From Candidatus Zixiibacteriota bacterium (GTDB lineage: Bacteria > Zixibacteria > MSB-5A5 > GN15 > FEB-12): a stretch of 49,485 bases of DNA. A model generated the notes under the pieces. It was given only the letters and a program-made list of their open reading frames with translations, ran no database searches and had not been told where the DNA came from. Made by a program: the position numbers and the translations under genes. Location of the stretch: NCBI GenBank assembly GCA_034003725.1, contig JAVEYB010000003.1, positions 1-49,485 on the forward strand, given 5' to 3'. The first letter of the stretch is position 1. The number at the start of each line of letters is the position of its first letter. Of this stretch, positions 11,966 through 28,126 are shown in pieces.

Positions 11966-14905
11966 ATGGACCGACCCTCACAAAAATTCGCGTTCGATAA
12001 CCGCCTGCTCGAGGTAGAAGAACTGTTCCGCCAGCGCAGCATCGGTACCGCGATCCGCCAGTTCGATACCTTGAATGCCTCCGACTTCGAAGACAGCCCG
12101 CACCAGAACGGGCTGTTTCTGTTATTGGCGGCGGAGAAGGGATTCGCCGAAGGGAATTACCGCACCGCCATTGAACACGGACTCAAGGCCACCCGGGTCC
12201 TCGCGGACTTCCCTCTGAACCGGCAGTACGGCCGTGTCCAGCTGGTCCTTTCCAAGTCATATTCAGCCATCGGCGATCTGAAAAACGCCGAAATCCGTGC
12301 ACACAATTCGCTCGCATCGTATCGCCGTGCGGCCGATCACGTCGGCCAGGTCAACGGCCTGAACGAGTTGGCCCGTATCGCATTCATCCGAGCCGACTTC
12401 GACAAAGCCCTCGGGTATCTTGATGAGGCGATTGAAATCGCCGGTGAGGAGCCCCGCAAAGTCGCCCAGCTGACCGGTAACGCCGGCACGATTCGCATGC
12501 TCGCCGGTCTCTGGAAGCAGGCCGAACAGGATTTGAATACGGCGCTCGAGTTCAACACCCGGCACAAACAGGAAATCTCGCAGGCCGTCAACCTGCTCTC
12601 GCTTGGGTACCTGCACATCCGCAAACGTGAGTTTGTCTTCGCCGCGCGCCACCTCGATCGCGCCCACGAGATTATTAGCCGTCTCAATCTGAAACGAGAG
12701 CGCGTCATATATCTCGAGTACATGGGTGAAATGGCCTTCGAGCGCGGTGACATTTTTAAAGCCAAGGCAACCCTGTCAGACGCATACCAGGAAGGCCGTA
12801 TGCTCGCCCCGGAATCGTCGCTCGTCAGCCAGGCAAGCCGTCGGCTTGCCGATGTCGAGCTTGCGCTCGACAATCACTCCGAATCGATGAAGCATGCGCA
12901 GAAAGCGCTGGAACTTGCCCAGACAGTGGGTGAGAAAGCGGAAGTTGGCGCTTCCTTTCGCGCCATCGCACGCATCTTCGCCGAGCGCGGAGAGTTCGAC
13001 GACGCCCTGACCTATATCCGGCAGGCGGTGGAAACCCTCCAGCACGTTGGCGATCCGCTTGAGCTGGCTCGCACCATGCTTGTCCAGGTCCAGATCAAGA
13101 TGAAAGCCGGGCTCGACGACACCGATCGGATGCGTCAGACGCTAGATGACGCCCTGCGCATTTTCCGCCGCCTCGAGCTCGAATACTGGATTGCGGAGAC
13201 CGATCACATTGCTGGTGTGCTCGCCTGCCAGGTGGGTGATCTGGCCCGCGGATTCAAGCACCTCTCCCGGGCCGAACGGTCGTTTACCGCGCTCGCTGAA
13301 AAAGGCAAGGTGCGCGCCGTCAATCAGTTCCTGCGTTCCCTTGCCGATTCGGCTGTGGCGGTCGCAGTCTCCGACCAGAATGAATTCAAAGTCTTCGGCA
13401 ATCTGGTGTCCCCTTCGGAAATGAAGGAGCTTAAGATGGGACGGATCGAAGAGACTCTCGACGTCCTCATCAAGCGGACACGGGCCAGCCGTGCGATAAT
13501 CTACACCCCGGACTTCTACGAGACTCCCGTCGTCGCATCGAAGCCGATGACCGAGCTGCAGGCGCACCGGTTCGCCGAGTCGTTCTCGCAGTTGCTGGGC
13601 GAAGAAGTAGCGCAGGACCGTCCGACCTTGTTGCTCGATTGCCGGCGCGACCCGTACATCAACGATCTGTTCGGCGACATCCCGGACCCCGTGGCGAGCG
13701 TTATTGTCGTTCCGTTCAAAATGAGCGACAAGTCCACCAGCTACCTGTATCTCGATCGTACGGCCGGCGACAATTCCATTAACCCGTTTTCTCAGCCAGA
13801 TCTGAACTTCACGGTTGGCTTCTCCGACCTGATCGCATTCAAGGCGGCCGAGTTGCAGAAGATGAAGCTGCTTGAAGATAACCGGCGGCTCAAAGACCAG
13901 CTCAAGATGGAGGCGGCGTTCCCGAATATCATTACCCGGTCCTCCCGGATGCTGGAGATGCTCGCACAGGTGCGACAGGTCGTCGATTCGTCTATCTCTA
14001 TCTCCATCGAAGGGGAGACCGGGTCCGGTAAGGACTTGCTGGCCCGCGCCATCCATTACAATTCGGTGCGGCGTGACAAGCGGTTCATCTCCGTCAACTG
14101 CGCCGCGCTGCCCGAAACGCTGCTCGAGTCGGAGTTGTTCGGCTATCGCCGCGGCGCGTTTACCGGCGCCGATCGCGACAAGGCCGGGCTGTTCGAGGAG
14201 GCCAACGGCGGGACGTTTTTCCTCGATGAAATCGCCGATATGCCGCTCGGGATTCAGGCGAAGATCCTTCGCGTGCTCGAAGAAAAAGAAATCGTGCGGC
14301 TTGGGGAAACCTCGCCGCGCAAGGTCGACGTCCGGATCATCTCGGCCACCAACAAGAGTCTTCGCGAGGAAATCGAACGTGGGACGTTTCGCCATGACCT
14401 GTATTATCGCCTTTCCGCGCTGACCTTCCGGCTGCCGCCGCTTCGCGATCGCAAAGAGGACATCCCGCTGCTCGTGGAGCATTTTCTGCGCGAAAGCGGC
14501 AAGTCCGTCTCTCCCACCGTCATGAAGTGCCTGGTTGCGTACGACTGGCCGGGCAACGTGCGCGAACTCGACAACGAAATCAAGAAACTCATTTTGTTGA
14601 CCGGCGACGCCGAAGAGATTTCCAGCGACACTCTGTCGTCGAAAATCGCAGCTGCGCTTGATGCCGACCAGATCGAGTCCGCCCCCGACATCATGCCCGT
14701 CTCCACCGGCATAGAGTTTACCGAAGAGTACTCCCTGTACGACTATCTGGCCGAGCACGAACGTCAGTTCATCATCAAGGCGCTTCGTGACCAGAAGGGT
14801 GTCAAGAAGCACGCCGCCGCTCTGTTAAAAATCCCGGAATCGACCCTTCGGCTGAAGATCAAGCAGTACAACATCGACCTGAATCAGATAGATTCGATTC
14901 ACTGA
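11966..14905 (+). CDS. TPR-GAF-sigma54-dependent transcriptional activator
   Basis: A 979-residue regulator of the NtrC-like AAA+ class with an unusual sensor part. Residues 1 to about 440 are tetratricopeptide-like helical repeats. About 470-640 resembles a GAF domain. About 655-885 is the sigma54-interaction ATPase: Walker A GETGSGKD at 683-690, the sigma54-contact loop GAFTGA at 730-735, Walker B FFLDEIAD with Asp754-Glu755, and the arginine finger region FRHDLYYRLS. The C-terminus carries a Fis-type helix-turn-helix (VKKHAAALLKIPESTLRLKIKQY). There is no receiver domain, so activation is probably by protein partners or a ligand. Its target promoters are not evident; I found no convincing -24/-12 site in the window. 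A terminator follows directly. Confidence 0.93.
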   Translation: MDRPSQKFAFDNRLLEVEELFRQRSIGTAIRQFDTLNASDFEDSPHQNGLFLLLAAEKGFAEGNYRTAIEHGLKATRVLADFPLNRQYGRVQLVLSKSYSAIGDLKNAEIRAHNSLASYRRAADHVGQVNGLNELARIAFIRADFDKALGYLDEAIEIAGEEPRKVAQLTGNAGTIRMLAGLWKQAEQDLNTALEFNTRHKQEISQAVNLLSLGYLHIRKREFVFAARHLDRAHEIISRLNLKRERVIYLEYMGEMAFERGDIFKAKATLSDAYQEGRMLAPESSLVSQASRRLADVELALDNHSESMKHAQKALELAQTVGEKAEVGASFRAIARIFAERGEFDDALTYIRQAVETLQHVGDPLELARTMLVQVQIKMKAGLDDTDRMRQTLDDALRIFRRLELEYWIAETDHIAGVLACQVGDLARGFKHLSRAERSFTALAEKGKVRAVNQFLRSLADSAVAVAVSDQNEFKVFGNLVSPSEMKELKMGRIEETLDVLIKRTRASRAIIYTPDFYETPVVASKPMTELQAHRFAESFSQLLGEEVAQDRPTLLLDCRRDPYINDLFGDIPDPVASVIVVPFKMSDKSTSYLYLDRTAGDNSINPFSQPDLNFTVGFSDLIAFKAAELQKMKLLEDNRRLKDQLKMEAAFPNIITRSSRMLEMLAQVRQVVDSSISISIEGETGSGKDLLARAIHYNSVRRDKRFISVNCAALPETLLESELFGYRRGAFTGADRDKAGLFEEANGGTFFLDEIADMPLGIQAKILRVLEEKEIVRLGETSPRKVDVRIISATNKSLREEIERGTFRHDLYYRLSALTFRLPPLRDRKEDIPLLVEHFLRESGKSVSPTVMKCLVAYDWPGNVRELDNEIKKLILLTGDAEEISSDTLSSKIAAALDADQIESAPDIMPVSTGIEFTEEYSLYDYLAEHERQFIIKALRDQKGVKKHAAALLKIPESTLRLKIKQYNIDLNQIDSIH

Positions 14906-14969: not shown

Positions 14970-15791
14970 ATGCGACCGGCCCGGCTATACACGCATCACT
15001 GCGGCGATCCCTGGTTCAACATGGCCTGCGACGAATGGCTCATGGCGTCAGCAGCAACCACTGACACCGTTTTGCTGAGGCTGTACACCTGGCGTGTCGG
15101 AACGATTACGATCGGATACAACCAGCGCCGCGAAAGCGCGTGCGACTGGACGCGCGTCAGCGATACGCCGGTCATCCGGCGCGTTACCGGCGGCCGGGCG
15201 CTCTTCCACGACCCATCCGAACTGACATACTCCATCGCTCTTGATACGGCGGCCGGCCACCCGTCACATCCTCTGAACAGCACTGTCTCTCAAACGTCGA
15301 GGTTGATCGCCCACGCGCTGGCAGCTTTCGTCGCCGCAGCCGGCAAGCCCGTCTCATACGTCAGGGTGTCATCGTCCGACAACGCGCGCCCGGCCTATTT
15401 TCATTCGGCGCCCTGTTTCGCCTCGCGGGCGCGATACGAACTCGCCGACGAACACGGCAAAGTCGTGGCCTCGGCCCAGCGCCGGATCGGATCGGTTTTG
15501 CTGCAGCACGGATCGATCAAGTTGCGCGGTGTGGCCGGACACCCTGCGCTGCCCGGTGTTGGCGACGATGCCGGCGGAAGTGCCCGGCACCCCATAAGTG
15601 CCGACGAATTTTCACGTTACGCTGCGCTTTTTGCTTCTGCCGCAGGCGCATCCCTCGATCTTGAGATCGCCCCCGCCGAACTTGACTCGCGTGATATTGA
15701 CGGGATTTCTCACTGCGCCGAGCGCCTCTCCGAAAACGGCCTGGTGCGCCGTGATCCAATTAAACAAAGTACTTCAGACGCCAGTCTATAA
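14970..15791 (+). CDS. lipoate-protein ligase/octanoyltransferase family protein (LipM-like)
   Basis: A 273-residue member of the BPL/LplA/LipB fold, which moves lipoyl or octanoyl groups onto lipoyl-domain proteins. Typical signatures are GDPWFNMACDEWLM at the N-terminus, the acyl-binding motif IRRVTGGRALFHDPSELTYS (about 68-87), and GKVVASAQRRIGSVLLQHGSI (about 162-182), whose lysine aligns with the catalytic lysine. A cysteine in APCFASRARYEL (about 150) matches the acyl-thioester nucleophile of LipM octanoyltransferases, so LipM is more likely than LplA. No Shine-Dalgarno precedes the ATG. No lipoyl synthase or E2 gene is adjacent. Confidence 0.8.
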   Translation: MRPARLYTHHCGDPWFNMACDEWLMASAATTDTVLLRLYTWRVGTITIGYNQRRESACDWTRVSDTPVIRRVTGGRALFHDPSELTYSIALDTAAGHPSHPLNSTVSQTSRLIAHALAAFVAAAGKPVSYVRVSSSDNARPAYFHSAPCFASRARYELADEHGKVVASAQRRIGSVLLQHGSIKLRGVAGHPALPGVGDDAGGSARHPISADEFSRYAALFASAAGASLDLEIAPAELDSRDIDGISHCAERLSENGLVRRDPIKQSTSDASL

Positions 15792-15828: not shown

Positions 15829-15858
15829 TTGACGCGAGCGCGGAAATAAGGCTATTTT
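15829..15858 (+). promoter_or_regulatory. promoter of the outer-membrane operon
   Basis: TTGACG (15829-15834), 18-bp spacer and TATTTT (15853-15858); CTATTT with 17 bp is the alternative. The predicted leader to the ATG at 16072 is long (about 205 nt). I could not fit a known riboswitch to it. Confidence 0.5.
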
Positions 15859-16071
15859 TCGAGCCATTGTGGATCAGTACAGCGTGGTAACCGTCAATGA
15901 ATGATAGGCTTGTGGGAACGGTTCTGAGGTTGGGACAACACCAAGATACTCTCTCACGCAATCATCCATCTCCGCACTTTATGTACTGACCTGAAACAGC
16001 TCGCGCTCTTGACCGGCGTGAGATAAGGCGTTGCAAGATAATAACATTTCAGATACGTGAGGAGGAAGACG

Positions 16072-19000
16072 ATGCAGGGCGTTGGTAACGCAGTCCGCTT
16101 CGGTAGAGTGCTTCTGCTCGTGGTCTTGCTTCTGATTCCCTTGCAGGTGTTCGGTCAGACCGGGCAGATCAAGGGACGAGTCACCGATGAAAAGTCGGGC
16201 GAGCCGGTCATCGGCGCTTCCGTGCTCATCGTCGGGACTAGTATGGGTGCGATGACCGACGTCGATGGTCGGTATCAAATCCTGCGTGTGGAAATCGGCA
16301 GCTATGACTTGCGGATCAGCCACCTTGATTTCAATACCGTCGAAGTCAAAGGCGTCACCGTCAACGACGGTCTTACGACGGAGCAGAATGCGAAACTCTC
16401 GCAGAAGGTCACGGATATCGGCACGACCATCGAAGTCGTTGCCGACCGCGATATTATCGAAAAATTCGAGACGCAGACGTCGACCAAGATCACCGCTGAA
16501 CAGATCCAAACCAAACCGGTGCAGAATGTCGATGCCTTGTTGACGCAGGTGGCCGGTGTGCAGACCAGCGCCACCGGTGAAGTCTTTATCCGCGGCGGTC
16601 GCGCCAACGAGGTGTCGTACATCGTCGACGGTGTGGAGATCGGTGACCCGCTCGGCGGGCAGGGAGCTGCCGGCGCCAACCTCTCGCTGGTCTCCGGTTC
16701 GATTCAGGAAATCCAGATCATCAAAGACGGCTTCGACCCCGAGTACGGAAACGCGCTATCGGGTATCGTCAACATCAAGACGGCGACCGGCTCCAAGGAC
16801 AACACCCAGATCAATATGCAGTACATCACTGACGATCTGGGCAATTCCGAGTTGAACAAGTACTCGCGCAACTATGACTACGCGCGCTTTTCGCTCTCCG
16901 GTCCGGACCCGCTGCTGAAAAACAAGATCCTGCCGGCGCTCGGCCTCAATTTCCTGGCCGACAAAGAGTTTACGTACTTCTTCTACGCCGAGGTCTCCAA
17001 GGACGATGACTATTATCCGATGCAGAACTACGATACCCCGGCTACCGAACGCGGTTGGTCGTCCTTCAATTTCCTCGGCGTCGATATTCCCGAGAGAGCC
17101 CGCAACCAGACGTACTGGATGGGTAACCTCAAGTTCAAGCCGAGACAGAACCTGAACTTCGTGCTTTCATACAAGTCGACGCACTCGAAAGACACGCGTC
17201 TGTTCGGCTATTGGGAGTACCGCTACTCCAACGCGACCCTTCCGGTCCGCCAGGAGAATTGGGAGTCGTTGTCGCTCGAGGTGTCGCAGTCGCTGAGCCG
17301 CAATACGACATATGAATTGAACCTGTCCTACTACTCGCAGGACATCTCGCTCAAGCCGGGCGACCCCAACAACCCCGGCCGGACCCTCGATCCTGATGAC
17401 TTTATGCTGCAGGGTGAGTGGGAGGATTACACCGACCTCAACGACAACGGCGTGTACGACGCCCCGGAGCCGGTGATTAACCTGTTTCCCGACACCGCAG
17501 TTTATGGCACGGATTTTTCCGGCCCCGCATATACGTTCGGCGAACTGAATCTGGATCAGGATCCTCTCGACCCGCAGAGTCCCGTCCTCTCGGATTTCCG
17601 ATTCAATGATAACGGCGTGATCGACTTCCTCGAAGGCGAGCCGTTTATCGACCTGAACGGAAACGGCGTGTGGGACAGCGGCGATTTGCTGCAGGACAAA
17701 AACGGCAACGGACGGCTCGATCTCAATCGGGTCCAGCCGATCAACAATCGGACGCCGGAAGCATTTGTCGATGGAGACATCATTCTCGGCGAACCGTTTA
17801 CCGACATCAACCGCAACGGCGTCTACGACCGTGGTATTGACCGCTTTGTGCGATCCGAAGATCCGGCCATCAACCAGGATCTGAACTACAATGGTGTCTA
17901 CGACGGTCCCAACAGCGTCTGGCAGCCCGGCATCCCGTTCCTCGATCGCAACGGTAACGGCATCTACGACGCCCCGAATTTCCGCTACGATCCGGGCGAA
18001 ACCTTCACCGACGTCAACGGCAACGGCTCCTATGATTACGGCGGCTCATCCACCTTTCTCGATCCGTACAACTACGACCCAGATGCGTTCTGGGTCGAGC
18101 GCGGCATCGATCGCTGGCGCGGTGAATTGCAGGTCTATCAGCAGCTCGGCAACCACGAGTTGAAACTGGGCGGCGCCATCATCCGTGAAGACTTCAATTT
18201 TGTCGAGATCCAGCGGCCCTACCTCAGCTACACCGGCCGCCCGGATGGAGGCCCGTACCCGGACCGCGGGGCATTCCGCGACGTGTTTGATTACACCCCG
18301 TGGCGCGGTACGGTTTATTTCCGCGACAAGCTCGAGTATGGATCGATGATCGCGTCGCTCGGCTTCCGCTGGGATTTCTTCCTGCAGGATGTTGACAACC
18401 TGATCGATGTGGCTGTCAACGACGATCTCGGGTCCGGTATCATCGAAGGCGACCGTCAGAAGTTCTCGCCTCGTATCGGGTTTTCCTACCCGATCTCGGA
18501 CAAGGCCAAGGTCCACTTCAACTACGGACACTTCTACCAGTTGCCCGAGTATCAGTGGATGTACGCTCGAAACACCGCCTCCGTGGACCAGGACCGGGTC
18601 GTCGGCAACTACAACCTGGACTTCCAGAAGACTATTCAGTACTCGTTCGGCGTGAAGTACGCCATGAGCGAGTATTATTCGATTGACGTTTCCGGCTACT
18701 TCAAGGATGAGTTCGACAAGATCAACAGCCAGTCGGTGCGTATCGGCGGTCTGACCCGTCAGCAGTACCGCAACAGCGACTACGGCCGCAGCCGCGGATT
18801 CGAGATCACGCTCGACAAGCGGGGCGGCGGATATATCACTGGTCAGCTCAGCTACACCTACGCATTTGCATATGGCAAGGCGTCGCAGACCAACGAGAAC
18901 TACCTCGAGGATTTCGAGCTGTCGAACGAACCGCTGTCGGAAACCCCGCTGGACAACGACATCCGCCACTCGCTGAAGACTGCTATCACGTTCTATATTC

Positions 19001-19416
19001 CGAACAACGTCAAACCGCGGCTCTTCGGCCTGCCGATTCCGAACGGTTGGTCCATGTCGATCGAATCGATTATCGAGAGCGGTCGTCCCTTCACGCCGTC
19101 GCGCTCCTACCCGGGGATCTCACAGTCCACGGCCGAAGCGATTGAAAACAATTCGCTCCGCTACCCGGCTACGGCGGTGTTTGACGCTCGGTTTTCCAAG
19201 GAATTTACGTTCGCTGGACTCAGCTTCGAGGGCATCCTCTGGGTTGAAAACGTGTTCGACAGCCGCAACGTGCAGGCCGTCTACACCAACACCGGCCGCC
19301 CGGACACCCAGCAGAACGTGAACCAGGTCATCAAAGGCGGTACGCCCTACGACGCCAACCCGTACAACTGGGACTACGGTCGCCAGGTCCGCGTCGGCAT
19401 CGAGGTCAACATTTAA
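16072..19416 (+). CDS. TonB-dependent receptor-like outer-membrane protein with calcium-loop repeats
   Basis: A 1114-residue outer-membrane protein. A signal peptide (about 1-28, VLLLVVLLLIPLQVFGQ) precedes a carboxypeptidase-regulatory-like beta-sandwich (about 30-110, IKGRVTDEKSGEPVIGASV). A TonB plug domain follows (about 140-245, VFIRGGRANEVSYIVDGVEIGD, then PEYGNALSGIVNIKT). The rest is a barrel ending in aromatic/hydrophobic alternation (VRVGIEVNI). Inserted at about residues 455-655 are eight EF-hand-like loops. I see no clear TonB box. GTG 16057 would lie in the ribosome site; the ATG at 16072 has GGAGG correctly placed. It heads an operon with a PorV-like gene and a lipoprotein. Ligand uptake or protein export/assembly are both possible. 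Confidence 0.88.
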   Translation: MQGVGNAVRFGRVLLLVVLLLIPLQVFGQTGQIKGRVTDEKSGEPVIGASVLIVGTSMGAMTDVDGRYQILRVEIGSYDLRISHLDFNTVEVKGVTVNDGLTTEQNAKLSQKVTDIGTTIEVVADRDIIEKFETQTSTKITAEQIQTKPVQNVDALLTQVAGVQTSATGEVFIRGGRANEVSYIVDGVEIGDPLGGQGAAGANLSLVSGSIQEIQIIKDGFDPEYGNALSGIVNIKTATGSKDNTQINMQYITDDLGNSELNKYSRNYDYARFSLSGPDPLLKNKILPALGLNFLADKEFTYFFYAEVSKDDDYYPMQNYDTPATERGWSSFNFLGVDIPERARNQTYWMGNLKFKPRQNLNFVLSYKSTHSKDTRLFGYWEYRYSNATLPVRQENWESLSLEVSQSLSRNTTYELNLSYYSQDISLKPGDPNNPGRTLDPDDFMLQGEWEDYTDLNDNGVYDAPEPVINLFPDTAVYGTDFSGPAYTFGELNLDQDPLDPQSPVLSDFRFNDNGVIDFLEGEPFIDLNGNGVWDSGDLLQDKNGNGRLDLNRVQPINNRTPEAFVDGDIILGEPFTDINRNGVYDRGIDRFVRSEDPAINQDLNYNGVYDGPNSVWQPGIPFLDRNGNGIYDAPNFRYDPGETFTDVNGNGSYDYGGSSTFLDPYNYDPDAFWVERGIDRWRGELQVYQQLGNHELKLGGAIIREDFNFVEIQRPYLSYTGRPDGGPYPDRGAFRDVFDYTPWRGTVYFRDKLEYGSMIASLGFRWDFFLQDVDNLIDVAVNDDLGSGIIEGDRQKFSPRIGFSYPISDKAKVHFNYGHFYQLPEYQWMYARNTASVDQDRVVGNYNLDFQKTIQYSFGVKYAMSEYYSIDVSGYFKDEFDKINSQSVRIGGLTRQQYRNSDYGRSRGFEITLDKRGGGYITGQLSYTYAFAYGKASQTNENYLEDFELSNEPLSETPLDNDIRHSLKTAITFYIPNNVKPRLFGLPIPNGWSMSIESIIESGRPFTPSRSYPGISQSTAEAIENNSLRYPATAVFDARFSKEFTFAGLSFEGILWVENVFDSRNVQAVYTNTGRPDTQQNVNQVIKGGTPYDANPYNWDYGRQVRVGIEVNI
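17434..18036 (+). repeat. eight EF-hand-like calcium-loop repeats within the receptor
   Basis: The encoded segment contains eight motifs of the form D-x-[DN]-x-[DN]-G-x-x-D: DLNDNGVYD, RFNDNGVID, DLNGNGVWD, DKNGNGRLD, DINRNGVYD, DLNYNGVYD, DRNGNGIYD and DVNGNGSYD. Several are separated by short linkers such as GEPFIDLNGNG and GETFTDVNGNG. The pattern matches the Ca2+-binding loops of dockerin and thrombospondin type-3 repeats. Its position between barrel strands suggests a surface loop. Calcium binding is inferred. Confidence 0.85.
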
Positions 19417-19460
19417 GCGGGCAACCGTGAGGCTGTCGAAAGAAAAGTGGTGAAGAATAA

Positions 19461-20465
19461 ATGAGGCGAGACATGGTACGCACAACGACACGTCGACCGC
19501 TCGGCTGCTCGGCCCCCGTCCGGGCGGCTCTGGCGCTGACGGCGATTACGCTTGTACTGGTCGTTCTGCTGACACCCGCGGACGCGAGAGCTCAGGCAAA
19601 GGTGGGAACCACCGGCGCCCAGTTCCTCGAACTCGGGGTTTCGGCGCGAGCGATGGGTATGGCCGAGGCGTATACCGCCGTCGTCGACGACATCTCTTCC
19701 ATATATTACAACCCCGCTGCGCTCGTGCAGATGTACGGGCGGGAGGGCATGCTGACCTACATCGACTTGCCCGCCGACATCGACTACGGATTCGGCGCCG
19801 TGGGGTTCCCGCTTGAGTCGATCGGCGGTGTGCTGGGTTTCAGTATGGCGGCCCTCACGACCGGCGATATCATCGAGCGAACCTACGAACAGGGAACTGA
19901 AGTCGGAACCGGCCGCGTCTTTACGGCCAACGACTTCCTGTTCTCCGTCGGATATGGACGGTATCTCACCGATCGCTTCTCGATCGGCTTCAACGTCAAG
20001 TATATCGGCGAGTTCTTTCATGAATATTCGGCCAGCGGATGGGCCGCCGACGTCGGTACCGTCTACGATACCGGGTTCCGCGGGTTTAAGATCGCGATGG
20101 TCATTACCAACTTCGGTCCCGATCTCACCATGATCAGCACGTCCTATCCGCTGCCGATCAACTTCAGATTCGGCGGCGCCATCAACCTGTTGGAGAATGT
20201 TGATCATATGGTGACGTTTGCGGCCGAAGGATCGCACCCCTCCGACAACCTCGAGAAATATAATGTCGGTCTCGAATACACGTTTAAAGACCGGTTCGTC
20301 CTTCGCGGCGGCAGCCGCTTCAACTACGACGAGGACGGTTTCACCGCAGGCGGCGGCATTCGCTGGCCGTTGGGCGAGGAAAGCGAAATTCGCGTCGACT
20401 ACGCGTTCCAGGACTTCGGCGTGCTGACCGAAGTTCATCGATTCACCATGGGATTCGCGTTTTAA
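19461..20465 (+). CDS. PorV/PorQ family outer-membrane beta-barrel protein
   Basis: A 334-residue FadL-like small barrel of the PorV/PorQ (UPF0164) family. It has a signal peptide (about residues 20-45, ending ARAQA). The family hallmark follows: GTTGAQFLELGVSARAMGMAEAYTA, then DISSIYYNPAAL. In the type IX secretion system PorV shuttles cargo carrying C-terminal sorting domains; homologues occur throughout the FCB group. It lies 44 bp after the receptor gene and 21 bp before the lipoprotein gene, in one operon. ATG 19461 and 19473 are both possible starts; no strong ribosome site separates them. Confidence 0.85.
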   Translation: MRRDMVRTTTRRPLGCSAPVRAALALTAITLVLVVLLTPADARAQAKVGTTGAQFLELGVSARAMGMAEAYTAVVDDISSIYYNPAALVQMYGREGMLTYIDLPADIDYGFGAVGFPLESIGGVLGFSMAALTTGDIIERTYEQGTEVGTGRVFTANDFLFSVGYGRYLTDRFSIGFNVKYIGEFFHEYSASGWAADVGTVYDTGFRGFKIAMVITNFGPDLTMISTSYPLPINFRFGGAINLLENVDHMVTFAAEGSHPSDNLEKYNVGLEYTFKDRFVLRGGSRFNYDEDGFTAGGGIRWPLGEESEIRVDYAFQDFGVLTEVHRFTMGFAF

Positions 20466-20486
20466 GGAGGGTGGAAAGTCAGGCTT

Positions 20487-22712
20487 ATGAACGCTCTATA
20501 TAACAACGCAATCGCCCGCGTGCTGATCGCGATCACCGCACTCGTCCTCGTTCTCGCAGCCGTCGGCTGTGATCGATTGACAGGCGAAAAGACCCCAAAC
20601 CGGGCGCCCGATGTCTACTTCGTCAACGTCCCGCCGGACGGCCACCAGACGTCGTTTGATCCCGTCGTCTATTGGGTAGGTACTGACATCGACGGAACGA
20701 TCAGCATGTATCGCTATATTGTCGTCCGTGAGGACGAAATGGGCGGAACAACCGACCCCGCGGTGTATGCGCAGACCGTCCTGCCGAACCGTCCCGAAAG
20801 CGACTGGACGTATCTCGACGTGCCGCCGGAAGATCCGCAGACGACGAACATCATTCCGATGTCGGCCAACCTCAACGATCCCATCTCGTCCTATGTAGGA
20901 CAATACGTGTTCCTGCAGGCCTTCGACGATATGGGAGCGCACTCGCCCATCATTTGGAAACTGTTCCTCCGTAACGATAACCCGCCGAATACCAATATTT
21001 CCATCACCGATCAGGTGTATATCAATGCGGCGGAACCCGCCGGCGCCATCACCGGCGTCCGGTTCTCGATTTCGTCGGAGGACCCGGACGAGGCCGACAG
21101 CCTCTTCGAGTTCCAGTGGAAGGTGTTTGGACCGTACACATTCGACGATGAGTCTGATACCGCGCAGTGGCAGCGCCTCGCCGACCTCTATTTCAAGCGC
21201 GCGCTGGTGACTACTGACGCCCGCGTGTTTATCTCGGGCTATGGACTCGCCGACACGATCATACAGGTCGTGGTGACCCCCGGCGGCATCGATACGGTCG
21301 AGTCTGTTATCCTTATTGATACCGCTGTCGTATCGAGCAATCTTGACCCGTTCTACGGCCGGGTCGAAACAACGCTCGATATGGAAGCGTTCGTGCAGGA
21401 CGGCGAGCTGTTCAAACCGGTCGACAGCTCCTACCGGAACGGCAGCCCGTGGGTATCGAACAACAAGGCGGATACCTATGCGGATTCGTTGTACAATCTG
21501 TTCCGTAACGAGTCGAACACCGTCACGCTTCAGCGCTACTTCCTGCTGTGGGCGCAGGCCCGCGACGCCGCATCGGTAGTCGACGGGACGCCGCGCTACC
21601 GCGGATTCGAAGTCGTCGATCCCAAGTACGAACGTGACATTCTGGTCATCGACTTCATGAGCTTCCTGAGCCGCATCAACGCCCCGGTCTTTGCGGCGGC
21701 CCAGGGTATCGATACGGCGCGGGACTACTGGGCCGAGAAGATTGCCACGTGGGCGAACACGTACTATCCCGGGGAAGTGGACTTCATTCCGTCGCGCGAC
21801 ATCATCCGCACGGAAGCCCAGTTGAACGAATTGCCGCTCGGCCAGTTGCTCGGATACAAGGTATTGATTCTCTACAATGACTACCTCCCGGCCGCGGGTA
21901 TGGCCGATGCGTCGGGTGTCGGCAGCACGCCGCAGGCGCTTAATATCTTCACCGCTATCGACGCAGGCGTGAACGTGTGGGCGACCTGGCGCTCGCCGGT
22001 GTACGGTGGTATCACGAATACGCCGTCGTTCGCCGTCCGGGTACCGCCTGAATTTGTCACCTACTTCGGTGTCCAGCAGCTTGCCTATTCCGGCTGGGGC
22101 TTCTATGCGCGCGGTAACGCCGGCCCCAAAGTCCGAATCGAGGACTTTGTCGGCGCCATCTCCCTCAAGAAAGGCGAGGGATGGCCAGACCTCACCATTG
22201 ATACGGCAAACCTGCACCGTCGCTACGACTGGCCGATCCGCCAGTCCGGCCAGACCATCGACTCCTCGTTTGTCTGGGAGCCGCCGCTCGGGTTAAAGTT
22301 TGACCTCGACAATTACTCGTATCCGGAGGTGAACTGGGCGCTGAGAACCTATGGCACCGACATCATCTATCTGTACAAGTCGTTCTTTTCGCCGAATCTT
22401 CATCCGCTCGGACAGGAACTGACGTTTGATGGAGCGCCCGTCGGCATCAGGTACGAGACCGACCTGTTCCGGACCGCTTTCTTCTGCTTCACGCCGCTTC
22501 CCATGGAAGACGACGTCATGCAGACTGTCATCGACAGCGTCATGAACTGGCTCTATGATCCGCAACTTGCGGTTCCGACAACCGGGACCCGCTACCATGG
22601 CTCCGATGTCACGATTGGCGCCGATCGGGCGCGCGAGGCGTTTTTTGAGCGCGGCCTGCGAGAGGAGCAGCATCGTCGTCAGACGAATAAGACGGTGCGG
22701 ATCGAACGATAG
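20487..22712 (+). CDS. large lipoprotein with a C-terminal Rossmann/GATase1-like region
   Basis: A 741-residue predicted lipoprotein with a lipobox ending in LAAVGC (Cys28), so anchored in an envelope membrane. Residues 40-180 look like a fibronectin/Ig-type beta region (APDVYFVNVPPDG, YWVGTDIDGTISMYRYIVV). From about residue 385 an alpha/beta pattern appears: RDILVIDFMSF, GYKVLILYND, IDAGVNVWATWRSP and near the end RTAFFCFTPLP. This resembles the ThuA/class I amidotransferase-like domains of surface proteins, but no Cys-His-Glu triad can be assigned. The C-terminal tail is charged and Arg-rich (residues about 710-741). It is the last gene of the receptor/PorV operon. Its function is not known to me. 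Confidence 0.75.
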   Translation: MNALYNNAIARVLIAITALVLVLAAVGCDRLTGEKTPNRAPDVYFVNVPPDGHQTSFDPVVYWVGTDIDGTISMYRYIVVREDEMGGTTDPAVYAQTVLPNRPESDWTYLDVPPEDPQTTNIIPMSANLNDPISSYVGQYVFLQAFDDMGAHSPIIWKLFLRNDNPPNTNISITDQVYINAAEPAGAITGVRFSISSEDPDEADSLFEFQWKVFGPYTFDDESDTAQWQRLADLYFKRALVTTDARVFISGYGLADTIIQVVVTPGGIDTVESVILIDTAVVSSNLDPFYGRVETTLDMEAFVQDGELFKPVDSSYRNGSPWVSNNKADTYADSLYNLFRNESNTVTLQRYFLLWAQARDAASVVDGTPRYRGFEVVDPKYERDILVIDFMSFLSRINAPVFAAAQGIDTARDYWAEKIATWANTYYPGEVDFIPSRDIIRTEAQLNELPLGQLLGYKVLILYNDYLPAAGMADASGVGSTPQALNIFTAIDAGVNVWATWRSPVYGGITNTPSFAVRVPPEFVTYFGVQQLAYSGWGFYARGNAGPKVRIEDFVGAISLKKGEGWPDLTIDTANLHRRYDWPIRQSGQTIDSSFVWEPPLGLKFDLDNYSYPEVNWALRTYGTDIIYLYKSFFSPNLHPLGQELTFDGAPVGIRYETDLFRTAFFCFTPLPMEDDVMQTVIDSVMNWLYDPQLAVPTTGTRYHGSDVTIGADRAREAFFERGLREEQHRRQTNKTVRIER

Positions 22713-22742
22713 CTGCCGGGTGATGACTGATGGACCACTCTG

Positions 22743-22769
22743 GGGACCGGCCGCGTGCCGGTCCCTTTC
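22743..22769. terminator. terminator between the lipoprotein and glycosyltransferase genes
   Basis: Perfect 9-bp stem GGGACCGGC-CGCGT-GCCGGTCCC (22743-22765) followed by TTTCTTATT. It ends the plus-strand operon and lies directly against the stop codon of the convergent gene. Confidence 0.85.
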
Positions 22770-24938
22770 TTATTGTGGTTGTTCGGGGACTAGTCGCTTC
22801 AGCGTTTCCGCGCCAAACCGCCTGTCAGCCTCGGCCATCACGCTGTCTGCGACCGCCGGGCGACCGGACTGATAGTAGCCACGGGCGAGATTCACGTACG
22901 CCTCCACTCGCATCGAGTCCAGATCGATCGCTTCCCGGCTGTACTTGATGGCATTGGCGAGATCGCCACGGATGCCCGCGAGGAACCCGAGCTGGAAGTT
23001 CGACTCGGCGAGGGCGCGTCGGCGGTTGGACGGGCTGTTGCGAAAGTCGCGGTCAAACGCCGTATCGTCCATCTCGATCGGCGGGCGTTTGGCTCCCAGG
23101 GCGACACGCAAGATGGAATCGGCAGTGCCGTACGCTCCGCGCGCGGCCGCTACAGTCGCCGCCTCATTCAATACGAAGATATCGTTGTCGGTATCACGAG
23201 CCCGCTCCCGGATAATATTCACCACCGAATCGACCGACAAGGTACTGTCCCCTGCAGCCGCGCGGACCATGATCCGCGAGGCCATCGGGTCGTACGGCCG
23301 AAGGGCAAGTGACCGACCCGCCGCGGATCGTGCGCTATCGGCGTGCCCCTCGATAAGCATCAGCGACGCTAAATTCGCGTAGCCCGCCGCCCGCTCGGGA
23401 TGTTTCGCTATTTCACGCCTGTAGTAGTACTCCGCGGAATCGGCCCGGCCGAGTCGCAGCCAGGCTGTCCCCATGTTGAGATTGACCTCGGGGAAATCGT
23501 CGTCCTGTCGAAGCGCAGCGGCATAAAGCTCACGCGCAGTCTCAAAGTCTTCGGCGGCGTAGAGGTGGGACCCGCGTATCATCAGCGTGTGGACGGCCGT
23601 TCCCTCCGACAACGATACCAGTGGCGCGTAGCTGACTATCCCGGCGCATATCCCGATCAACATCGCCGGCGCAAGGCCAATTGCGCTGTGCCGTTGCCGC
23701 CATGCTTCGGTGATGCCGGCTCCCGCCAGGACCGCAAAAAACGGAATGAGCGGCAGTCTGAATCTACTCGCGAAAAAGAAGAGCGCTCCGGAAAGTACAG
23801 TTGCCAGTAGCACGGCGGCCAGCCAGCGAACCCGCTTGTTTTGCTTCCACAGCAGTATCAGGCCCATGATCGCCAGCGCGAATACGAGACCGAACTCGAT
23901 GGGGTTGTATCGGAGCAATGCGACCCGCGAAAAGTACTCGGCGAGATCGCGGTTGTTGGAAACTTCACGGTTCGAGATGCTGTAGTGCAGCTTCCTGCCA
24001 AATAGCGACAGGAACGAAACCGGGTTGTCTTTCATCCACTGCACGGCCTGATCGGTCCAGTAGCCCGATACCTCCCCAGGCGTCAGGTCCCGGCCAAGAG
24101 CTTCCTCCGCTCGGTGAACGACGTCCGCGATCCGCCAGTTGTGCCCCAGCGGCTCGGGAAGCACGGCCGAGAGACCGTCGGCGCGCTCGTTGTTGCCGAT
24201 ATAGAGGTTTATACCGCCCTGCGATGCAATCAGGACGGGATCGTCCGCCACAACGATGTTCCGCACGGTCAACGGGACAATGATGAGCCCCGCTCCGGCA
24301 AGAAACACCGCGGCTCGCCGTAGACCCACCCGCCAGCTTAGAAGCGCAACCGGTATCAGCGCGCATACGATCATCCAGACGAGCGCGGTTGGTCTGCAAA
24401 TCGAGGCCAGCCCAAACCACAGCCCGGCCGAAAAAAACATCCACGGCGTCGGCCGCTCCCACCACAGTAGAACCCGGTACATGGCTACTTGCAGCAGGAG
24501 CGTGAACAGGGGGTCGAGCAGCAGCTCGAATTCGAAATAGATGGCAGCCGGGTAGACGGCATGAATCAGCCCTGCTGCAAATCCCGCCCCGGGCGATACC
24601 AGTCGGCTGGCGAGTCGATAGGTCATGAATACCGAGCCAAGGCCGACCACGAGACCAAAAAGCCGACCTGTAATCAGGCCATCACCGAACACCGCATACA
24701 ACGCTGAGAGACACCAGACATACAGCGGTGCCCGGAAGTATGTCGTGTCGCCGACTACGTCTCCACCGGCAATCACCTGCGCCCAGTGATGGTGATAGTA
24801 GTTGTCAACCGTAAGCATCGTCCAGTCCGGCATCGCCCGGTAAACCCAGAAGTACACCAAACGGATGGCCACGGCGATCGCCATGAGAATGATGATGGTT
24901 GGGAGATTGCTGGCGTGCGCGTGTTGGGATCGAGTCAT
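22770..24938 (-). CDS. GT-C (family 39-like) glycosyltransferase with C-terminal TPR domain
   Basis: A 722-residue membrane protein. The N-terminal two thirds has about ten membrane helices and the ArnT/PMT-like layout, with an acidic motif early in the first periplasmic loop (MPDWTMLTVDNYYHHHWAQ) and TYFRAPLYVWCLSALY. Such enzymes transfer sugars from polyprenyl-phosphate donors to lipids or proteins. From about residue 430 the chain becomes soluble TPR-like repeats (SHLYAAEDFETARELYAAALRQ, PEVNLNMGTAWLRLGRADSAEYYYRREI, ANAIKYSREAIDLDSMRVEAYVNLARGYYQSGR), probably periplasmic and binding an acceptor protein. The start is the ATG at 24938. The frame extends 11 codons upstream, but a -10-like TATATT six bases upstream favours 24938. 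Confidence 0.85.
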   Translation of the reverse strand: MTRSQHAHASNLPTIIILMAIAVAIRLVYFWVYRAMPDWTMLTVDNYYHHHWAQVIAGGDVVGDTTYFRAPLYVWCLSALYAVFGDGLITGRLFGLVVGLGSVFMTYRLASRLVSPGAGFAAGLIHAVYPAAIYFEFELLLDPLFTLLLQVAMYRVLLWWERPTPWMFFSAGLWFGLASICRPTALVWMIVCALIPVALLSWRVGLRRAAVFLAGAGLIIVPLTVRNIVVADDPVLIASQGGINLYIGNNERADGLSAVLPEPLGHNWRIADVVHRAEEALGRDLTPGEVSGYWTDQAVQWMKDNPVSFLSLFGRKLHYSISNREVSNNRDLAEYFSRVALLRYNPIEFGLVFALAIMGLILLWKQNKRVRWLAAVLLATVLSGALFFFASRFRLPLIPFFAVLAGAGITEAWRQRHSAIGLAPAMLIGICAGIVSYAPLVSLSEGTAVHTLMIRGSHLYAAEDFETARELYAAALRQDDDFPEVNLNMGTAWLRLGRADSAEYYYRREIAKHPERAAGYANLASLMLIEGHADSARSAAGRSLALRPYDPMASRIMVRAAAGDSTLSVDSVVNIIRERARDTDNDIFVLNEAATVAAARGAYGTADSILRVALGAKRPPIEMDDTAFDRDFRNSPSNRRRALAESNFQLGFLAGIRGDLANAIKYSREAIDLDSMRVEAYVNLARGYYQSGRPAVADSVMAEADRRFGAETLKRLVPEQPQ

Positions 24939-24944
24939 GCCTCG

Positions 24945-24950
24945 AATATA
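24945..24950 (-). promoter_or_regulatory. possible -10 element of the glycosyltransferase gene
   Basis: TATATT on the minus strand, six bases before the ATG at 24938. No good -35 is found at 17 bp. If real, the mRNA would be leaderless. Confidence 0.3.
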
Positions 24951-25068
24951 AGGTCGCTGCTCGGGACACACCTTGAAAAATTATGCACTCTTCGGAACTC
25001 ATCGTCCGCCGTGGTCGTCAATTTGCACACATGTGCTGACACATTCCTTTCGACCCTCGCCTCCACAA

Positions 25069-25096: not shown

Positions 25097-25213
25097 CTGT
25101 CAATATCTTAAACGATTTCCTCGGCGGCGGGAGTGCATCCGCCTGCAGGGTGTCGGTCCGTACCAATCGACGGCACAGCCTTTGCAGCAAGACCCTGTTG
25201 AATGGAGGAAAGT

Positions 25214-28126
25214 ATGAGACTCCGGTTTGCCATCATCTTCGGTATCACTGCCCTGGTACTCCTGGCCGCTGTCGATGCGGTCTCGGGCCCAGCCAAACTC
25301 TCGCCCCGGCTTCAATCGCTTGATCGCCGGGCCGCCGATAGTGACAGCCTGATCGAAGTGGTGGTTTTCCTTGAAGACCGATCGGCGCAGGACAATCTGC
25401 CTTACGCGGTCTCCCGGCCTCATATGAAGCGATCCGACCGCATCAAGTCCGTGCTTTCCCGGCTTTCGTCTGCCCGCGCCAACGGTTCATCAGAAATAGA
25501 AGACTTTCTCAATTCCTTTGGCCACGGTGAATCGCGCCGCTTCTGGATCGTCCCCGCGTACGCCGTGACGCTTCCGGTCAGTCGCATCGATGAGCTCGCT
25601 GCCATGGAAACGGTCCGGATGATCGTAGAGAACGTCTCTTTGTCCTTCGATGAGCCGGTCGACGTACTCGCCGCCGGTGAGTTGTCGACGTCGTCGGCGT
25701 CCACCCAATTGAACTTGCTCAACGTCCCGTATCTCTGGCAGCGCGGGCTCACCGGTTCCGGCCGGCTGGTCTGTTCGTTTGACACGGGCGTGGAAGGATC
25801 CCATCCGGCGCTCGCCTCCAAGTGGCGCGGAACTCACGCACCCGTTTCCGAATCGTGGTTCTCCCCGGTCAATCCAAACGCCACACCGTACGATGTCGCC
25901 GGCCACGGTACGCATACGATGGGAATAATGGTCGGCTCCAACGCCACCGACACGTTTGGTGTCGCCCCGGGCGCCGAGTGGATCACCGCCGGGGTGATCG
26001 ATCAGGGACGTACCTTCAATACTACGCTTGCCGACATTATCGCCGCCTTCCAGTGGGTTCTCAATCCTGACGGCGATGTCAATACAACTGACGACGTACC
26101 CGATGTAATTCTCAATAGCTGGGGTATACCCGCCGGCCTGTTCGCGCCCTGCGACCCGACCTTCTGGGGCGTCATCGACGCGGTCGAGGCTGCAGGCATC
26201 GTGACCGTATTCGCCGCCGGCAACGAGGGGCCCAACGCCCAGACTCTTCGCGATCCCGCCGACCGTGCCACCACTCCGCTGAACTCATTCTCCGTCGGGG
26301 CGGTTGACAACAGCCGGCAGATCGCATCCTTCTCCAGCCGTGGACCGTCGCGGTGCAGCCCCGGCGAGATCAAGCCTGAGGTCGTAGCCCCCGGCGTCAC
26401 CGTATACTCATCCACAAAGGGTGGAACCTATGCCTTCATGAGCGGCACCTCCATGGCGGCTCCTTATATTGCCGGCCTTGTTGCGCTCTGTCGGCAATAC
26501 AATCCCGATGCGACAGTTGAAGAGATCAAAAACGCGTTTCTGCAGTCCACCGTGGATCTTGGTCCGGTCGGCGAAGATAACGCCTACGGGCACGGTATTG
26601 TGGATGCTTCCCTGTTGCTCGAACATCTCCCGATGCCGGGCGGATATATGTTCGTCATGAATGGCGATCCGTACCTCCCCGACGGTGTCGCGCTCCCCGG
26701 CAATGACGTCTCCATGCAGATTCTGCTGACAAGCACGACCGGCAACGCCAACCAGATCACGGGCCGCCTGGTCAGCGACGACCCGGCGATCGCAAGCGTT
26801 CTGGACAGCATAAAAACTTTCTGGTTCGGTTCTGGAGCGACCACCGCCCTGAATCAAACCCCGTTCACGATCCGCCTCGCTGCAGACTTGGTCCATGGTT
26901 CGGAGGCAGACTTCACGTTGTACCTGGCGCTGGAGAACGGCACGGTTGTCGACACGCTGACGTTCGGAGTTACGGCCGGATATCCTTCGCCCGGCGCCAC
27001 CCTCGACCACGAAGGCGGCTCACTCCAGTGGACTGTTTCGGATTTCGGCCAGTACGGCTTCGCCGCCGGATCGATTTACAACCTCGGCGGCACGGGCTTC
27101 AGCGCTTTCGGTGGAGAGAACCTCCTGTATGAGGCCGGTATAGTGGTCGGCCGAAATTCGCTCCAGCTTGCCAGCTCCCTGCGCGCCGAAGACGGCGCGT
27201 TTCGCCCCAGCGACTTCACGCCGACTCGGGCAATTGCCTCCGCTCGCCAGGACGACGACGGCGCCGTGCATTACACCGCCGAGTTCGTAGATACGTACGC
27301 CGACATCCCCATTCCGGTCGCCATCCACCAGACGACCACTCACTTTACAAACGAAGTCTCCGGCGGCGTGGCCCTCGTTCGTTACCGGCTGATTAACGAC
27401 TCGATCGAACGCCTGACCCATGTCAGCTTCGGTTTCCTCGCTGATTTCGATCTCTCCGACCACGCTGACCGTCTTCAATTCGACCCGACCGCCGGCCTGC
27501 TCTGGCAGACCAACGATTCGGGGCTGCTGGTCGGTCTGCTGGCTCTGAATGGTCTCGATGCCTTCCACGGAATGTCCAATGGAGACGCCAAGTCGGGCTT
27601 TTCCGCCACCGAGCAGTATGACCTCATCAGCGCCGCTGTCAGCCGGATGGATGACTCCACAACCGGGGACATGATCATGATGATTTCGTCCGGCGAATTC
27701 GACATCGAGGTCGGTCAGTCGGTGGAAGTTGCGTTTGCTATCGTAGTCGGCCGCACGATCACCGAACTGTACGGCGCGGTCGAAGATGCCCGTCATGCGT
27801 ACGACATCTCTACACCGGTCGACGACGGTCGTCGCGATCAACTGCCTCAGGCCTTTGTGCTCGAGCAGAATTATCCCAACCCCTTCAATCCGGTTACGAC
27901 GATCGCCTTCTCGCTGCCGGCCGCGTCCGACGTTCGGCTCGAGGTCTTCAATACGCTCGGCCAGCGCGTCTCCGTGCTGCACAACGGCGCTCTCCCCGCG
28001 GGCTCCCACACGATCGAGTGGGACTCCACCGATGACGCCGGACGTACTGTCGCCTCAGGTGTCTATTTCTATCGTCTCTCCAGCGATACGCACGCCGACT
28101 CTCGCAAAATGATCCTTTTGAAATAA
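25214..28126 (+). CDS. secreted subtilisin-like (S8) protease with C-terminal sorting domain
   Basis: A 970-residue secreted serine protease. It has a signal peptide (about 1-22) and an inhibitor-like propeptide (about 25-150). The S8 catalytic domain has Asp190 (VCSFDTGVEG), His231 (GHGTHTMG), oxyanion Asn337 (AAGNEGPN) and Ser413 (SGTSMAAP). After a long beta-rich region comes a C-terminal domain beginning at about residue 877 (FVLEQNYPNPFNPVTT) and ending ASGVYFYRLS...RKMILLK. This is the FlgD-Ig/type A sorting domain used for secretion and surface anchoring in FCB bacteria. The ATG at 25214 is preceded by GGAGG; the in-frame ATG at 25202 lies within that site. The next gene carries the same C-terminal domain. 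Confidence 0.93.
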   Translation: MRLRFAIIFGITALVLLAAVDAVSGPAKLSPRLQSLDRRAADSDSLIEVVVFLEDRSAQDNLPYAVSRPHMKRSDRIKSVLSRLSSARANGSSEIEDFLNSFGHGESRRFWIVPAYAVTLPVSRIDELAAMETVRMIVENVSLSFDEPVDVLAAGELSTSSASTQLNLLNVPYLWQRGLTGSGRLVCSFDTGVEGSHPALASKWRGTHAPVSESWFSPVNPNATPYDVAGHGTHTMGIMVGSNATDTFGVAPGAEWITAGVIDQGRTFNTTLADIIAAFQWVLNPDGDVNTTDDVPDVILNSWGIPAGLFAPCDPTFWGVIDAVEAAGIVTVFAAGNEGPNAQTLRDPADRATTPLNSFSVGAVDNSRQIASFSSRGPSRCSPGEIKPEVVAPGVTVYSSTKGGTYAFMSGTSMAAPYIAGLVALCRQYNPDATVEEIKNAFLQSTVDLGPVGEDNAYGHGIVDASLLLEHLPMPGGYMFVMNGDPYLPDGVALPGNDVSMQILLTSTTGNANQITGRLVSDDPAIASVLDSIKTFWFGSGATTALNQTPFTIRLAADLVHGSEADFTLYLALENGTVVDTLTFGVTAGYPSPGATLDHEGGSLQWTVSDFGQYGFAAGSIYNLGGTGFSAFGGENLLYEAGIVVGRNSLQLASSLRAEDGAFRPSDFTPTRAIASARQDDDGAVHYTAEFVDTYADIPIPVAIHQTTTHFTNEVSGGVALVRYRLINDSIERLTHVSFGFLADFDLSDHADRLQFDPTAGLLWQTNDSGLLVGLLALNGLDAFHGMSNGDAKSGFSATEQYDLISAAVSRMDDSTTGDMIMMISSGEFDIEVGQSVEVAFAIVVGRTITELYGAVEDARHAYDISTPVDDGRRDQLPQAFVLEQNYPNPFNPVTTIAFSLPAASDVRLEVFNTLGQRVSVLHNGALPAGSHTIEWDSTDDAGRTVASGVYFYRLSSDTHADSRKMILLK

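Follow-up and report, generated by a model that had tools for sequence, protein, structure and literature searches.

Type IX secretion (T9SS) is known almost only from Bacteroidota; cargo with a type A C-terminal sorting domain (CTD) shares a single carrier, PorV, and dedicated carriers are PorP/SprF-like. PorV docks on the SprA translocon, binds the CTD and carries the cargo out (PMC10994853). PorU, which remains on PorV, and PorZ, which remains on PorQ, retain their CTDs, and handling by a cognate PorV-like barrel has been proposed as the reason (PMC10202324). Outside this system, the receptor Oar of Myxococcus xanthus, with its TonB box, is required for secretion of PopC (PMC6434023), and the FadL-family barrel protein BamG and the surface lipoprotein BamH are conserved across most of the FCB superphylum (PMC12611786). 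Here we describe a three-gene outer-membrane operon of the Zixibacteria that combines a TonB-dependent receptor, a barrel of the PorV/PorQ family and a large lipoprotein.

The window, that is, the whole stretch of 49,485 nucleotides that was analysed, belongs to contig C3 of a 3.7-Mb Candidatus Zixiibacteriota genome that is 99.5% complete. An earlier note, made from the sequence alone, had described in it an envelope operon for a receptor-like barrel, a PorV-like barrel and a large lipoprotein. All three genes are present on the forward strand: REC, encoding a TonB-dependent-transporter-type receptor of 1114 aa (16072-19416), POR, encoding a PorV/PorQ-family outer-membrane barrel of 334 aa (19461-20465), and LIP, encoding a large lipoprotein of 741 aa (20487-22712), with 44 nt between REC and POR and 21 nt between POR and LIP. 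The true start of REC is probably ATG 16072, not the listed GTG 16057, because a GAGGAGG motif lies just upstream of the ATG and the corresponding Met is nearly invariant in relatives; the GTG overlaps this GAGGAGG-type ribosome-binding site, and REC residues are numbered from it throughout. The order and strand of the trio are kept in 31/31 relatives examined in full, which come from four families, with median gaps of ~20-30 nt. The trio is therefore a tight operon, far beyond chance, which confirms the earlier description.

The earlier note had placed this unit between a promoter and a strong terminator, and the terminator stands. An intrinsic terminator-like hairpin (22742-22766, + strand) with a 10-bp, GC-rich stem (8 GC pairs) and a T-rich tail, TTCTTATTGT, is a good match and lies directly before the convergent gene. 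The promoter-like site TTGACG-18-TATTTT (15829-15858, + strand), by contrast, is at chance level, since it matches the consensus at 9/12 positions and 3.6 such sites are expected in shuffled 10-kb sequence, so that it is not evidence by itself. The trio is nevertheless probably a transcription unit of its own, because in relatives the spacing between REC and the lipoate-ligase-like gene upstream is kept large (~95-815 nt, mostly ~270) compared with ~20-30 nt inside the trio. This lipoate-ligase-family gene (14970-15791, + strand; PF21948) adjoins REC in nearly all relatives with sequence reaching that far and probably lies outside the operon; it is the constant upstream neighbour of REC in most of the phylum, for a functional reason that is not evident. 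Ahead of the block, most members of the family to which the window belongs have a gene for a 979-aa protein with TPR and NtrC-type sigma-54 activator regions (window 11966-14905). On the other side, relatives keep the convergent glycosyltransferase-TPR gene (GT-C (PMT_2)-TPR; 22770-24971, - strand; PF13231), followed by a subtilisin-type protease that carries a type IX sorting domain, here an S8 protease with a type A T9SS sorting domain (25202-28126, + strand; PF00082), which in the window is followed by an M6 protease, also with a T9SS sorting domain (28202-30988, + strand; TIGR03296). Both proteases had been noticed earlier as sorting-domain proteins just downstream, and their TIGR04183 scores, 36.3 and 31.0 bits against a cut-off of 23 bits, bear this out.

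Co-occurrence of the three genes in order in other genomes had been proposed as a check, and it gave the same picture over a wider set: among 80 named loci, POR follows REC in 58 (median gap 29 nt), with LIP reached in 51 of those 58, and in 21 more a CTD protein of one family comes directly after REC; 11 of these 21 loci continue to POR within the locus (median gap 16 nt). REC was found in every genome searched (61/61), and a LIP profile matches 125/132 genomes of the phylum, including 77/78 good ones. These figures describe Zixibacteria, which filled the named-genome scan and to which the phylum search was confined. Nearly all named REC relatives retained are labelled Candidatus Zixiibacteriota or carry older names of this phylum; the few exceptions, labelled bacterium, Calditrichota, Ignavibacterium or FCB group, may be bins with a wrong name. 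One genome (contig CP070824.1, isolate bin1124) has two REC copies, at L177 and L180, both matched over the C-terminal part only; POR and LIP come after one copy, and after the other there is a shorter POR with LIP missing.

REC consists of a CarboxypepD_reg-like N-terminal domain (residues 37-114, 16165-16398, by domain search), a plug (residues 139-236, 16471-16764; PF07715, 48.6 bits) and an Oar-like barrel, with matches to PF13620, PF13715, PF07715 and PF25183. The plug had been recognised before, together with the remark that no clear TonB box was present; this second point did not hold. The linker from the N-terminal domain to the plug contains a conserved TonB-box-like segment, TTIEVVA (residues 123-129, 16423-16443), in which V127 is Val in 37/38 relatives and position 129 is Ala or Gly in 32/38; relatives read, for example, KTITVTA or KTIVVTG, and the segment is degenerate in part of the family. 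The structure model (pLDDT 72.4) has the fold of a TonB-dependent transporter (TBDT) and gave Foldseek matches to PqqU (E 6e-27), Cir, BtuB and XusA, so that REC is, as modelled, an ordinary TonB-dependent transporter by fold. It reaches 68.3 bits with the SusC/RagA model TIGR04056, below the cut-off of 368.25, and a mean column identity of 58% makes it unusually conserved for a receptor. A pattern count revealed a calcium-type repeat region with seven DxNxxGxxD motifs (residues 460-660, 17434-18036), modelled mostly as coil between barrel strands; the mean over 38 relatives is 6.1 motifs, and the two paralogous receptors on C9 and C1 have 0. The same region occurs as a free domain in a 356-aa lipoprotein-like ORF elsewhere in the genome (C17:42495-42773 (-), locus L293:3384-4451), where it is 65% identical to REC residues 568-660.

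POR scores 201.7 bits with the PorV/PorQ family model NF033709 (cut-off 90) and falls below the equivalog cut-offs of PorV (NF033710, 66.3 bits, cut-off 250), PorQ (NF033711, 101.5 bits, cut-off 220) and PorV2. Its alignment profile finds the SprA-bound carrier PorV of Flavobacterium johnsoniae in the PDB (6h3i_F, E 7.9e-15), a FadL-type match (PF03349) is weak, and about ten places in its own genome match it. Judged by sequence, POR is thus a paralogue within the PorV/PorQ family and not PorV itself. The earlier designation as PorV-like is upheld at the level of the family, and canonical PorV was rejected as an identity for POR on two grounds, its score below the PorV equivalog cut-off and a separate PorU-PorV-type pair on C12. 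There, PorU (NF033707, 673 bits, cut-off 420) adjoins a PorV-type barrel (L103:7420-9999), a protein of 860 aa whose barrel is split by a long insert with a LysM domain. The genome also encodes SprA (TIGR04189, 589 bits, cut-off 200), which is found in 117/132 genomes of the phylum, a PorQ-like barrel on C1 (181.7 bits, cut-off 220) and about 50 places that match the type A sorting domain TIGR04183. PorP_SprF had no match in the genome and marginal matches only, in 11/61 relatives. With the SprA translocon, the PorU sortase and CTD proteins all present, a link of the trio to type IX secretion is supported by gene content.

LIP carries a signal peptide with the lipobox LAAVG|C28, whose Cys28 is invariant in the alignment of relatives. 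By sequence it had no match in Pfam, NCBIfam or the PDB, the SusD families of Pfam and NCBIfam included. Its structure model (pLDDT 85.7) predicts two Ig/FN3-like domains (~37-380), which gave common fold matches only, followed by a GATase1-like Rossmann domain (~383-692); residues 383-692 align to 2gk3 with a VIA-align Z of 15.2 (rmsd 3.7, 201 aligned), so that the C-terminal part has, as modelled, a clear GATase1-like fold, which implies no function. BamH is absent among the Foldseek and VIA matches listed for LIP, which does not exclude a BamH fold. We know of no part of a T9SS or Sus system with this combination of Ig and GATase1-like folds. Operons that include the CTD gene encode a shorter LIP (median 601 aa, n=7) than the others (747 aa, n=39), a difference that may reflect phylogeny alone. 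Several genomes of the family encode second LIP-like proteins that match only from ~residue 165 onward (G011:C14:83607-85247, G030:C1:2349213-2350859 and others).

The CTD protein that follows REC in the deeper Zixibacteria families is ~870 aa long (~830-945 aa) and lies between REC and POR. The family had no match in Pfam or the PDB. The proteins end in a tail (...NTQAVVSGIYLYSVES...GKFVIIK) of type IX/FlgD-Ig character, and such tails give weak matches to the CTD ends of the models for PorU and PorZ (best E 1e-4 to 4e-6). A profile of this family, which we term the client family, finds copies in 132/132 genomes of the phylum. None of the copies in the window's own genome belongs to the operon: C2 has a tandem array of four full-length copies, C17 and C11 have one copy each, a partial match lies on C3, and two divergent relatives are found on C9 and C1. 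We infer that the CTD-containing order is ancestral and that the CTD gene has since left the operon in the taxonomic order to which the window belongs and multiplied elsewhere. The tandem array (C2:370091-381363, loci L287/L288) comprises four CTD proteins of ~870-940 aa, and just ahead of it lie three ORFs, two of them peptidase-like (505 and 719 aa) and one of 323 aa; similar arrays occur in other Zixibacteria. The copy at C11:120212-122818 (L290) is interrupted by a TAG codon into two ORFs of 523 and 305 aa. In the long deep locus L214, a CTD gene follows REC with no POR within ~5 kb, and in two other deep loci the CTD genes are in tandem and POR is absent from the range covered.

The association of barrel, receptor and CTD protein recurs outside the operon. 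The two best paralogues of REC in the genome lie on C9 and C1, the two best of POR lie at the same two places, and each place reads receptor-CTD protein-barrel. The C9 row is complete in 18/20 relatives fetched, and the other two end at contig ends. From their gene content, the C9 and C1 rows look like duplications of a module rather than of single genes. They and the CTD gene inside the deeper operons tie the trio to type IX cargo, and they bear on a further check proposed in the earlier note, whether copies of the genes flank sorting-domain proteins.

Guided by these observations, we propose that REC, as a TonB-dependent transporter, forms one constitutive outer-membrane complex with a T9SS-exported surface partner, with POR as the dedicated carrier or anchor of that partner, and with LIP; we give this reading an even chance of being right. 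Besides the plug and the TonB-box-like segment, REC would contribute a large surface region with the calcium repeats. POR would take over a single class of type IX cargo from SprA and keep the CTD of that cargo attached to the outer membrane, a role suggested by analogy with PorV, which holds PorU, and PorQ, which holds PorZ. The exported client would be the ~870-aa CTD protein family, becoming the extracellular partner of REC, and LIP would be a second partner that caps or joins the complex from the cell surface. Ligand would then be bound and taken up via REC, under a Sus-like lid made from type IX cargo. That the four parts form one complex, with POR handling the CTD, LIP facing outward and TonB working with the whole, is what we infer from these features. 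The client presumed for the window's order is taken from the deeper lineages, because the CTD gene is not in the operon in the window's order. The earlier note had suggested a secretion or surface-assembly module: gene content does tie the trio to type IX cargo, but the conserved TonB-box-like segment and the TBDT fold make uptake as possible as secretion. Taken together, uptake with a T9SS-delivered surface partner is the most likely function, and surface assembly comes next.

The trio could instead be a dedicated secretion or surface-assembly machine, with REC acting in the outward direction, as Oar does in Myxococcus, or providing a surface docking platform for ~870-aa CTD proteins that form an abundant surface layer. 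We regard this as possible, if rather doubtful. The REC barrel matches the Oar-like PF25183, but this is a broad barrel family; the role of Oar in PopC secretion provides a precedent (PMC6434023), yet REC shows no sign of outward transport, and SprA is present for export. The conservation of REC and its occurrence in all 61 genomes are as expected of a housekeeping role, and the ubiquity and multiplication of the client family, with its tandem of four here, point the same way. GldM_1st matched 0/41 genomes in a search without a positive control, as control genomes likewise gave no match over the cut-off.

A reading of the trio as a simple nutrient receptor that depends on TonB and has a lipoprotein as its lid, SusCD- or XusAB-like, with POR as only a FadL-like porin unrelated to type IX secretion, is in our estimate unlikely. 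It would account for the fold of REC, which resembles PqqU, Cir, BtuB and XusA, the last of which pairs with a surface lipoprotein, and for the weak PF03349 match of POR. Against it stand the 201.7-bit family match of POR and the recovery of PorV by its profile, as well as the CTD protein found beside POR in deeper lineages and beside the barrels of the C9 and C1 modules, and LIP matches no SusD family. More speculative, and in our view very improbable, is a TonB-powered branch of type IX secretion, in which REC-POR-LIP would receive the ~870-aa CTD proteins from SprA and, with TonB energy replacing the GldLM motor, would pull them off the translocon and build the main surface layer. A lineage version of the Bacteroidota BAM accessory subunits, although suggested by the BamG/BamH makeup of barrel and surface lipoprotein and its FCB-wide conservation, can be set aside almost entirely, as the BAM complex has no TBDT among its subunits (PMC12611786) and model scores reject POR as BamG: POR had no match to the BamG model NF053685 at E up to 0.1, whereas a barrel on C15 has one (49.8 bits, below the cut-off of that model).

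Each part falls in or near a known family. Neither the combination, nor its conservation across the phylum, nor the pairing of PorV-type barrels is described in the literature searched, where we found no paper combining Zixibacteria with type IX secretion; the earlier suggestion that such a module had not yet been described agrees with this. Across an entire uncultured phylum, SprA and PorU appear to have been retained and PorV-type barrels to have multiplied, and some of these barrels appear to have a single CTD protein and a single TonB-dependent receptor as partners. With such pairs, the proposal that a cognate PorV-like barrel retains a CTD protein at the cell surface becomes testable, and the arrangement points to outer-membrane complexes in which a transporter is joined by a partner delivered through type IX secretion.

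Compared with known systems, REC shares with Oar of M. xanthus the succession of CarboxypepD_reg domain, plug and Oar-like barrel and a TonB-box-like segment, but a PorV-type barrel or a lipoprotein is not part of the Oar system as described in the literature consulted. Like the carrier and anchor barrels of the PorU-PorV and PorZ-PorQ pairs, POR belongs to the PorV/PorQ subfamily of NCBIfam, and barrels of that kind adjoin genes for CTD proteins here, PorU included; POR differs in scoring below both equivalog cut-offs, in being encoded with a TBDT and a large lipoprotein, and in having about ten matching places in one genome. The cognate shuttle pairs of type B CTD proteins and PorP-SprF barrels of Flavobacterium (PMC12618676) likewise place the gene of a cargo protein next to that of a shuttle barrel of its own, whereas the Zixibacteria barrels are of the PorV family and the cargo tails resemble type A CTDs. 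With SusCD, RagAB and XusAB the operon has in common a TonB-dependent transporter with a CarboxypepD_reg domain, encoded together with a lipoprotein that is possibly surface exposed; in contrast to those systems, the score of REC stays far under the SusC/RagA cut-off, LIP is not of the SusD type, and the Zixibacteria module includes a PorV-type barrel and type IX cargo.
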